Source: Arthrobacter pascens (GTDB lineage: Bacteria > Actinomycetota > Actinomycetes > Actinomycetales > Micrococcaceae). From it: DNA of 64,000 bases. The position numbers were made by a program, and so were the translations under genes. Location of the stretch: positions 3,968,001-4,032,000 of the forward strand of contig NZ_JAUSWY010000001.1 of NCBI RefSeq assembly GCF_030815585.1, in the 5' to 3' direction. Positions within the stretch are counted from its first letter, which is position 1, and every line of letters begins with the position of its first letter. Of the stretch, positions 8,687 through 20,873 are shown piece after piece. Below the pieces are notes generated by a model. The model had not been told where the DNA came from and did not search any database. It saw only the letters and a list, made by a program, of their open reading frames with translations.

Positions 8687-10240
8687 CTAGTTGGCCGGCG
8701 ATGCCTCTTTGCCGTCCCTGATCCGCTTCACCACGGCGGTGGTGGAACGCTCCGCAACGTAGTCCAAGATGGCCACCCGCCCGCCGTAGTCTTCCACGGA
8801 TTTCGTCTCCTCCAGCATCTCAGGGGTGTAGTCCCCGCCCTTGGCATAGACCTCGGGCCTGAGCTGCTCGATCAATGGAATGGCCGTAGGGGTATCAAAA
8901 ACTGTCACGTAATCCACGCAGCTGAGTGCGGCGATCACCGCGGCCCGGTCAGCCACGGCGTTGATGGGCCGGCCGGGACCTTTGAGCCTGCGCACTGATT
9001 CGTCGCTGTTGAGGGCAACCACCAGCACATCGCCGAGCTGCTTGGCCTGGTTGAGGTACCGTGTGTGGCCGCTGTGCAGCACGTCGAAGCAGCCGTTGGT
9101 CAGCACGATCCGCTGGCCTTGGGACCGGTGCACTTCCAGCTGCCGTATCAGTTCCTCCGCACTGAGCGCCGTGTCCGCAAAACTCGCCAGGTGGCGGCTC
9201 AGCTGGGCCGTGCTGCAGACGGACGTCCCTGGCTGGTGCACCACCACGTCCGCGGCTGCCTGCGCCAGGTCCAGGCTGGCCGTCAATGGAAGGCCAGCAG
9301 AATGGGCCAGTGTCAGCGCAGCAACAAAGGTGTCACCGGCACCGGACGCCTGTTTTTCAGCGGCTGGCCGCGCCCAGGTCCGGTGCGAGCCTCCGTCCGC
9401 CGAGAAGAGCACGGTCCCGTCCCGGTCCAGGGTAACCACCACGGCCCGGGCGCCCGTGGCCGCCAGCAGCGCCTCCCGGTGCCGGGCCACGGCGTCGACC
9501 CTCCCCGCTCCGTCTGGCAGGCGAAGGTCAAGCATCCGGGCGGCTTCCTGGGCGTTGGGGGTGACCAGGTCTGGCTGAAGCCCGGCCCACGGACGCGGGT
9601 CATGGGCGTCAATCACGGTCAGCGGGCGGGCTGTTGCGCCTTCCGCCCCGTCGGCTCCCCGCACCGCAAGCGCCGCAATGAGGCTACTGCGGACCGGATC
9701 GACCAGGACTCCGGTTCCGTAGTCACACACCAGCACCGCTTCCTGAAGTTCGACGGCGGCGCGGACTGAAGCGGCCAGCGCGGCCAGCGCCTCCTCCGGG
9801 ACTGCACTGGCCGAATCATCAATCCGCAGCATCACCTGGCCGCCGCTGCTGATCCGGATCTTGGTGGTGGTGACCATGGACGGATGGTCGTACAGGTTCC
9901 GGACGTCGATACCCGCCTCCATCAGTTTCTTCCGCAGCGTCACACCGGCGTCGTCGGTTCCGATGATGCCCGCCACGGACACGCGTGCACCCAAGGCGGC
10001 CAGGTTCATGGCGGTATTGGCAGCGCCACCCGGGGCGAATTCCCGCGTGGTCACGTCCACCACCGGTGCGGGCGCCTCGCGGCACAGCCGTTCGATGTTT
10101 CCGTTCCACCAGCCATCCAGCATCACATCGCCGATCACCGTGATGGCAGGGCTCTCAGCGGCCAGGCGCCTGGGCAGCCACTCGGACAATGCCCGCTGGC
10201 CGGAGAGTCCGCCCCGGCCGGATGGTTCCTGCGGGCTCAC
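8687..10240 (-). CDS. hldE: HldE-type bifunctional heptose 7-phosphate kinase / heptose 1-phosphate adenylyltransferase (copy 1)
   Basis: A 517-residue two-domain protein. Residues about 32-345 are a PfkB/ribokinase domain: VIGDVMLDGWW, substrate loop GGAANTAMN (71-79), ATP loop GAGDT (300-304). Residues about 375-510 are a cytidylyltransferase-like domain with GCFDVLHSGH (383-392) and the RfaE marks VYAKGGDY and ERSTTAVVKRI. In Gram-negative bacteria HldE phosphorylates D-glycero-D-manno-heptose 7-phosphate and then adenylylates the 1-phosphate. All motifs look intact. The GTG start overlaps the aldehyde dehydrogenase stop (GTGA, 10237-10240), so the two are coupled. A roughly 30-residue N-terminal extension precedes the kinase. 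Confidence 0.9.
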   Translation of the reverse strand: MSPQEPSGRGGLSGQRALSEWLPRRLAAESPAITVIGDVMLDGWWNGNIERLCREAPAPVVDVTTREFAPGGAANTAMNLAALGARVSVAGIIGTDDAGVTLRKKLMEAGIDVRNLYDHPSMVTTTKIRISSGGQVMLRIDDSASAVPEEALAALAASVRAAVELQEAVLVCDYGTGVLVDPVRSSLIAALAVRGADGAEGATARPLTVIDAHDPRPWAGLQPDLVTPNAQEAARMLDLRLPDGAGRVDAVARHREALLAATGARAVVVTLDRDGTVLFSADGGSHRTWARPAAEKQASGAGDTFVAALTLAHSAGLPLTASLDLAQAAADVVVHQPGTSVCSTAQLSRHLASFADTALSAEELIRQLEVHRSQGQRIVLTNGCFDVLHSGHTRYLNQAKQLGDVLVVALNSDESVRRLKGPGRPINAVADRAAVIAALSCVDYVTVFDTPTAIPLIEQLRPEVYAKGGDYTPEMLEETKSVEDYGGRVAILDYVAERSTTAVVKRIRDGKEASPAN

Positions 10241-19901: not shown

Positions 19902-20873
19902 ATGGATATCTCGGATGAAGGGCCAGCTGACGTCCGGCCCCAACTGTTGGTGCTCCGGGCCCTGGGCCTCGGCGATCTGCTCGTGGCTGTTCCCGCCCTG
20001 CGCGCCTTGCGGAGAGCATTCCCGGGCTATCGCCTGCGCTATGCTGCGCCCGGGTGGCTGGCCGGTGCGCTGGAGCTGGTGGGCGGTTACGAACTGGTGC
20101 CGCTGTCCGGGCTTGAAGCCCCCATCCCGGTGCGCCCCGGAGAGGTGGATGTCGCCGTCAACCTGCACGGCAAAGGCCCCCAGAGCAGTGAACGGCTCGA
20201 AGCCATCGGCGCCCGGAGAATTTTGCAGCACTGCACCAGCGACGGCGACGGCGACGGCGACGGCGACGGGCCAGCGTGGGTGGAAGACCTGCACGAGCGT
20301 GAGCGCTGGACGCGTCTGCTGCATTGGCACGGCATCAACGCCGACCCGCGGGATTGCGCACTGCGCACTCCGTCCACCCCAACAAAGTTTCCCGGCGCCA
20401 CGGTGGTCCATGTGGGCGCCGCCTTTCCCAGCAGGCTGTGGCCAGCCGAGCGGTTTGCGCGCGTGGCCAGACAACTGTCTTCCCGCGGCCATCAGGTGGT
20501 GTTCACCGGAAGCGCCCAGGAGCGCGGCAGGGCAGTGGAAGTCTGCCGCCTGGCCGGGCTGCCCGAAGTCTCGGTTCTTGCGGGCGAGCTGGAACTGCAG
20601 GCCTTTGCCGCCTGCATCGCAGGTGCGCGGTTGGTGATCTCAGCGGACACCGGGGCAGCGCACCTGGCATCGGCTTATGCCCGGCCTTCCATTGTCCTCT
20701 TCGGGCCAGTGGCCCCGGAACGCTGGGGGCCGCCGCCCGGGCCTCACCTGGTGTTGACGCGGGGACGGCTGCGGCGCGGCGACCCGTTCGCGGACAGCCC
20801 GGACCCGGCCATTCTTGGGGTGACGGCAGGGGATGTGCTGGAGGCAGTGGCAGAGCTGGAATCCGCACCATAG
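19902..20873 (+). CDS. Glycosyltransferase family 9 (ADP-heptosyltransferase type), copy C
   Basis: A 323-residue GT9 protein: LLVLRALGLGDLLVAVPALR, VVHVGAAFPSRLWPAERFAR and VISADTGAAHLASAYARPSI. Unlike copies A and B it has no C-terminal cysteine cluster. A DG repeat of ten residues (from SDGDG) in the middle comes from a perfect hexanucleotide repeat and probably forms a flexible loop. ATG 19902 follows GGAAGGAAAGG. Its last 130 bases overlap the end of the convergent sigma-factor gene. Confidence 0.88.
   Translation: MDISDEGPADVRPQLLVLRALGLGDLLVAVPALRALRRAFPGYRLRYAAPGWLAGALELVGGYELVPLSGLEAPIPVRPGEVDVAVNLHGKGPQSSERLEAIGARRILQHCTSDGDGDGDGDGPAWVEDLHERERWTRLLHWHGINADPRDCALRTPSTPTKFPGATVVHVGAAFPSRLWPAERFARVARQLSSRGHQVVFTGSAQERGRAVEVCRLAGLPEVSVLAGELELQAFAACIAGARLVISADTGAAHLASAYARPSIVLFGPVAPERWGPPPGPHLVLTRGRLRRGDPFADSPDPAILGVTAGDVLEAVAELESAP
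20241..20269. repeat. Hexanucleotide tandem repeat (GACGGC, nearly five copies)
   Basis: Four perfect GACGGC units plus GACGG lie inside GT9 copy C and encode alternating Asp-Gly. Because the unit is 6 bases, changes in copy number keep the reading frame and would only lengthen or shorten a loop. Confidence 0.9.

Follow-up and report, generated by a model that had tools for sequence, protein, structure and literature searches.

A putative heptose-glycan operon in Arthrobacter pascens, probably of the same kind as the cwg operon of Streptomyces

What does a Gram-positive actinobacterium do with genes for an activated heptose? The question is raised by a 64,000-nucleotide stretch of Arthrobacter pascens (contig NZ_JAUSWY010000001.1, positions 3,968,001 to 4,032,000; hereafter the window, in whose coordinates features are given unless stated otherwise), in an Arthrobacter-type genome that forms a single contig of 4.73 Mb. 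An earlier note, made from the DNA letters, had described GmhA, GmhB, two HldE proteins, three family-9 glycosyltransferases (GT9) and two other glycosyltransferases at 8687-20873. Profile matches found all of these, the two others being of the GT4 type, and added an aldehyde dehydrogenase (ALDH) that the note had not listed. We propose that a nucleoside diphosphate (NDP)-D,D-heptose is made here and is probably used by dedicated heptosyltransferases to build a small glycan, most likely of the cell envelope. The cluster would be, again with fair probability, the form that a conserved actinobacterial operon for heptose glycans takes in Arthrobacter, and of one kind with cwg of Streptomyces. Gene identities, retained active sites, the operon with its conservation and the fold of one GT9 enzyme (GT9A) are the parts that the sequence supports.

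A predicted route to NDP-D,D-heptose

At the core of the cluster stand six reverse-strand genes. These are gmhB (19244..19786), encoding a HAD phosphatase that is GmhB-like at 106 bits and is the putative heptose-1,7-bisphosphate 7-phosphatase; GT9B (18156..19244); GTx (17125..18159, start refined from 18315), a GT4-fold (GT-B) glycosyltransferase that serves as signature gene of the operon; GT4 (15875..17128), related to sucrose-phosphate synthase and MshA; gmhA (15159..15878, 158 bits), for the predicted sedoheptulose-7-phosphate isomerase; and hldE2 (13786..15162, start refined from 15177; 286 bits with the HldE model), for a predicted heptose-7-phosphate kinase and heptose-1-phosphate nucleotidyltransferase. 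The overlaps by which the earlier note saw these genes coupled are real: TAATG joins gmhB to GT9B, ATGA joins GT9B/GTx, GTx/GT4, GT4/gmhA and gmhA/hldE2, all being of one or four bases, and a short-chain dehydrogenase gene (SDR; 13029..13730, reverse strand, by profile match) lies 55 bases beyond hldE2. A second bifunctional HldE gene, hldE1 (8687..10240, reverse strand; 353 bits), shares a GTGA overlap with the ALDH gene (10237..~11712, reverse strand, start refined). On the forward strand lie GT9A (11865..13004, start approximate and refined from 11679), encoding a heptosyltransferase-fold enzyme, and GT9C (19902..20873), which diverges from gmhB across a gap of 115 bases. The genome's three GT9 matches (E <= 0.001), two HldE matches (E <= 1e-20) and sole GmhA match (TIGR00441, E <= 0.001) all fall inside 8687-20873.

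In the predicted route GmhA would convert sedoheptulose 7-phosphate to D-glycero-D-manno-heptose 7-phosphate, HldE would phosphorylate C1 of the heptose, GmhB would take off the 7-phosphate and HldE would attach the nucleotide, which would be ADP and possibly also CDP or UDP. GmhA, GmhB and HldE are supported as a complete predicted set for ADP-D-glycero-D-manno-heptose, as the earlier note had read them, and the residues to which we assign presumed catalytic and metal-binding roles are largely retained. In GmhA the isomerase site retains its His, Glu and Gln residues (Q94 H95 E99, Q205, H213), and GmhB keeps D17, R18, D19, NQSG, C94, H96, C102, C104, KP and G130 D131, with its DxD, zinc Cys/His and KP residues also retained among relatives. 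Among aligned relatives (all row counts include the window sequence) the kinase motif GAGD was present in 61/61 HldE1 and 89/89 HldE2 rows, and the nucleotidyltransferase motif HxGH in 59/61 and 88/89 rows, respectively, the remaining HldE2 row being a gap. With TIGR02199, the model of the HldE nucleotidyltransferase domain, the two HldE proteins scored 194 and 183 bits against a cut-off of 181.5; it was the sole equivalog-type model among those listed to reach its cut-off. HldD was not found at its curated cut-off anywhere in the genome (best 132 bits versus 274.6), so the donor would stay in the D,D form, and LpxC had no match in the genome; both results agree with the earlier note, which had seen no HldD in the window and expected the organism to have no lipopolysaccharide (LPS). 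We regard this route and the use of its product by GT9 enzymes as the best-supported part of our reading and as very probable.

Conservation of the gene set and its two architectures

For a comparison across genomes we used 100 loci, 80 of them the best by GTx similarity in named genomes and 20 picked for diversity from other genomes. The closest GTx relatives came mostly from Arthrobacter and Pseudarthrobacter, with Arthrobacter sp. ISL-48 the nearest named one at 88%. The order gmhB-GT9B-GTx-GT4-gmhA-hldE2, which the earlier note had suggested seeking across actinobacteria, was intact in 82 of the 89 loci that held all six genes. GTx was present in 93/150 genomes of the window's genus and in 102/393 sampled genomes of its class. 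HldE, called in this class sample at 167 bits or more with TIGR02199, was found in 97 genomes, of which 95 also carried GTx (89 of these within 15 kb) and two did not. Because the order is conserved and the genes co-occur, the cluster is beyond chance. GTx was further found in 29 of 246 genomes sampled over the phylum, 19 of them outside the window's class. Among 16 loci taken from GTx genomes outside the class, 12 (L120-L131) had most or all of the core, with carbamoyltransferase in 11 and hldE2 likewise in 11; L132 and L134 held a divergent set with hldE1, L135 was partial, and on the short contig of L133 GTx alone was visible. The gene set is widespread in actinobacteria, including other classes, where it usually comes with a carbamoyltransferase.

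Two architectures were distinguished. In the first, seen in Arthrobacter, Microbacteriaceae and Aeromicrobium, GT9C precedes the core operon and GT9A, ALDH and hldE1 follow it, sometimes with a GT2. In the second, seen in Streptomyces (L079), several Amycolatopsis, Crossiella (L078), further genera and other classes, a dehydratase (in many loci) and a carbamoyltransferase precede the core, GT9C follows it, and there is a single HldE. Neither dehydratase nor carbamoyltransferase is found in the window cluster, and carbamoyltransferase PF16861 had no match in the window genome. Carbamoyltransferase occurred in 18 and hldE1 in 61 of the 100 loci, never together, although L130, from another class, holds both and breaks this exclusion. 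An HldE1-like gene also stands beside a weakly similar carbamoyltransferase and a GT9 gene, unlinked from the core, at L150 (G390:C16:70001-90000), which may be a secondary-metabolite cluster. In L092 (12900-14900) a GT2 domain and a GmhB domain share one stop-free frame, which ties the phosphatase to glycan assembly; the corresponding longer open reading frame of L100 gave a HAD domain and no GT2 domain.

We also sampled 13 loci around HldE genes unlinked to GTx. There hldE1 lay beside or one gene away from a GT9A relative in eight (L137, L142-L146, L149, L151); in four more (L140, L141, L147, L148) its neighbour was a GT9B-like gene, and L150 departed from both patterns. Since hldE1 keeps company with heptosyltransferase genes away from the core, the two look like a module of their own that Arthrobacter has placed next to the core operon.

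GT9A and GT9C appear to be linked in their fate. In the 53 loci of named genomes where SDR, hldE1, gmhB and the sigma factor gene (sig) were all in view, both were present in 36, neither in 17 and one alone in none. In a tree built from the six core proteins (59 rows) the sister of the window is L004, a locus without either gene, and the other 16 loci that lack the pair form a separate clade together with L015, whose contig was too short for the pair count. By parsimony the pair was then either lost jointly twice or lost once and regained as a pair, despite the roughly 7 kb between the two genes. Such joint gain or loss supports one function for them, predicted to be an outer decoration dispensable to the core product. 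The rule is not absolute: L034, L057 and L064 carry GT9C without GT9A and, having no hldE1 in the fetched stretch, fall outside the 53, and in 4 of the 100 loci GT9A occurs with no hldE1 in the fetched stretch.

Several neighbours were noted at the flanks. Adjoining GT9C in the orientation of the operon is a sigma-70 factor (20744-21652, reverse strand) that has regions 2, 3 and 4, and its position is kept in many Arthrobacter and Microbacteriaceae loci; by its layout it is SigB/SigF-like and may control the heptose operon. It is adjoined by a gene for an NAD-dependent epimerase (21739-22854, forward strand), a relative of which stands beside hldE1 at the far cluster end in various other Arthrobacter and Paenarthrobacter loci. 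On the other side, a 306-aa protein (7724-8644, reverse strand) adjoins hldE1; it had no match in a Pfam search at 1e-5 or in a PHROGs search, and near relatives keep a counterpart at about 80-94% identity. Farther out lies a row of Holin-X-like (PF07332), DUF3618 and BrkB-family genes (24535-26782, forward strand).

Glycosyltransferases and the likely product

Downstream of the donor, GT4 and GTx might start or extend a glycan in the cytosol, to which the GT9 enzymes would add heptose, GT9B in nearly all loci and GT9A with GT9C as an optional pair in the Arthrobacter lineage, while SDR and ALDH might modify the glycan. We infer the identity of the sugar, the order of transfer, the acceptor and the location in the envelope. 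GT9A, GT9B and GT9C score 81.7, 74.4 and 92.5 bits with PF01075, above its cut-off of 22 bits. At the positions that we take to bind the donor in WaaC (Asp261, Lys192, His266), GT9A and GT9C retain Asp and His and have Arg for Lys, the Asp being kept in 46/46 GT9A rows.

TibC and Aah, the autotransporter heptosyltransferases, use D,D-heptose, and transfer onto a protein was accordingly weighed. GT9A does carry a conserved Cys/His finger at its C-terminus, and iron-finger cysteines, together with dodecameric assembly, are what we take to be hallmarks of TibC/BAHT enzymes. The fold of GT9A, however, resembles WaaF and WaaC, both of which match it much better than TibC, which was not among its sequence and profile matches; nor was an acceptor adhesin recognised among the flanking genes scanned. 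We consider protein heptosylation the least probable of the alternatives, and very improbable.

Given the pathway, an envelope glycan appears the probable product, as suggested by the regulation of cwg and by the occurrence, in the vicinity of some relatives, of a protein of the pyruvyl transferase family. In S. coelicolor cwg is induced by vancomycin and under partial control of sigma-E (PMC6767563). The main rival is that the product is small and soluble, for example a stress solute or a glycoside that is secreted; a phosphorylated polyol or sugar would then be the starting acceptor of GT4, and heptoses would be added without an envelope anchor. It ranks first among the alternatives on two grounds: the operon was not seen to bring membrane or polymer genes along, and GT4 resembles enzymes acting on soluble phosphorylated acceptors. 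Among solved structures GT4 is closest to Tll1590 (212 bits), a sucrose-phosphate synthase according to its entry title, and to MshA (173 bits). Lys78 and Arg155 of GT4, aligned with presumed phosphate-binding residues of MshA, are conserved at no less than 97%, with MshA Tyr110 and Thr134 replaced by Phe and Ala, respectively. By a simple hydropathy script none of the proteins of the cluster is a multi-pass membrane protein, and in S. coelicolor salt raises cwgA (PMC13011467). Yet besides the envelope-type regulation and the pyruvyl transferase neighbours, the spread over genera and classes would be unusual for a secondary metabolite, and we hold a soluble product to be unlikely. GT4 was also considered as the mycothiol enzyme MshA itself and rejected, since it reaches 241 bits with TIGR03449 (cut-off 462.5) and another gene (genome positions 988531-989733) scores 509 bits.

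Several points weigh against an envelope heptoglycan. The likeness of GT4 to enzymes with small soluble acceptors is one. Another is that we recognised among the genes accompanying the operon neither a polymerase or flippase nor a lipid-carrier transferase or LCP gene, an odd finding for a wall polymer. Seven GTx genomes of the class sample lack a strong HldE, and the tie to cwg is one of gene order and annotation, not of S. coelicolor sequence. Scores with the full equivalog models of HldE, GmhA and GmhB fall well short of the NCBIfam cut-offs, Leu replaces the Asn of GGAAN, presumably a PfkB kinase residue, in 89/89 HldE2 rows, and GT9B has Asn at the position of WaaC Asp261 in 96/96 rows. 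Enzyme activities, sugar and product are predictions, here as in the papers found. The departures in the models, HldE2 and GT9B would also suit a hexose as the nucleotide-linked sugar, on which HldE-like and GT9-like enzymes would act, as was proposed for the carbamoyl-mannose of bleomycin, on which our literature search found no paper. Against a hexose speak the presence of GmhA in 90 and GmhB in 91 of the 100 loci with conserved residues, the canonical GGAANTA motif of HldE1 with its Asn in 61/61 rows, and the two nucleotidyltransferase domains above the heptose equivalog-domain cut-off; it seems improbable to us.

Beyond the envelope glycan that we favour, a bolder and doubtful suggestion is an ancient, phylum-wide actinobacterial heptoglycan that is not LPS, teichoic acid or antibiotic. 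Soluble enzymes would assemble it in the cytosol, using D,D-heptose (which many lineages may carbamoylate) and a small phosphorylated acceptor; in Arthrobacter it would be extended by hldE1-GT9A and GT9C, with the two outer heptosyltransferases gained and lost as a pair. With the signature gene in about a quarter of the class species sampled (102/393), a heptose-containing molecule may be common and unseen in Gram-positive biology. ALPK1, a vertebrate receptor, has NDP-heptoses among its agonists (PMC11573728), and such bacteria may therefore also be sensed through that pathway.

Comparison with known heptose systems

With the LPS inner-core pathway of Gram-negative bacteria the cluster shares GmhA, HldE, GmhB and GT9, as well as the WaaF/WaaC fold of GT9A; it differs in its other glycosyltransferase partners and in a genome where HldD and LpxC were not found. 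ADP-heptose is already known from Gram-positive actinobacteria, being made by Streptomyces for septacidin and hygromycin B (PMC10221265). There the heptose feeds antibiotics, whereas the operon described here is conserved in many genera, and no antibiotic scaffold gene was found among the flanking genes scanned. The NDP-heptose enzymes (HBE/HENase) of Tang et al. 2024 have, as given in two commentaries (PMC11573728, PMC11461863), the promiscuity motif (F/L)XXGRSTT. Both window HldE proteins share the didomain build and the Arg at the fifth place (YVAERSTT, YHPARSTT) but depart from the full motif, with Tyr at place 1 and Glu or Ala at place 4. Counting the commonest motif forms only, this Arg occurs in at least 77/89 HldE2 and at least 27/61 HldE1 rows.

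The closest likeness is to cwg, which in 2002 was named by Hong et al. as a putative operon for cell-wall sugars (as cited in PMC6767563 and PMC5839063). It comprises 12 genes (SCO6179-6190), is a sigma-E target and is predicted to serve cell-wall glycan synthesis (PMC6767563); its response to a cell-wall antibiotic adds to the interest of the operon type. The table in PMC5839063 lists a dehydratase (SCO6182), transferases (SCO6183, SCO6185, SCO6188), a phosphoheptose isomerase (SCO6186, cwgH) and a bifunctional synthase/transferase (SCO6187, cwgI), with SCO6184 missing. The annotated order of SCO6182-6188 fits that of L092, a locus of the second architecture (NADdh-carbT-(GT2/GmhB)-GT9B-gmhA-hldE2); 3' of hldE2 follow SDR and then GT9C in L092, and GT9C directly in Streptomyces iconiensis (L079). 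No name for the cwg product was found in the literature since the 2002 prediction, most subscription journals being outside the coverage of the search. A paper on Streptomyces wall glycopolymers names teichulosonic acid and a poly(diglycosyl phosphate); in its available part it makes no use of the word heptose (PMC11481543). The earlier note's statement that no product is described for the gene set hence stands as far as the literature was searched, but the set itself is known. The window cluster has the adjacent phosphoheptose isomerase and HldE genes with glycosyltransferase genes in conserved order. It differs from cwg in lacking the dehydratase and the carbamoyltransferase and in having hldE1, ALDH, GT9A, a free-standing gmhB and an adjoining SigB/F-type sigma factor. 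The kind of operon is thus already known as the cwg type, by order and annotation; new here are its reach into other actinobacterial classes and the Arthrobacter form, which has an hldE1-GT9A module and no carbamoyltransferase.
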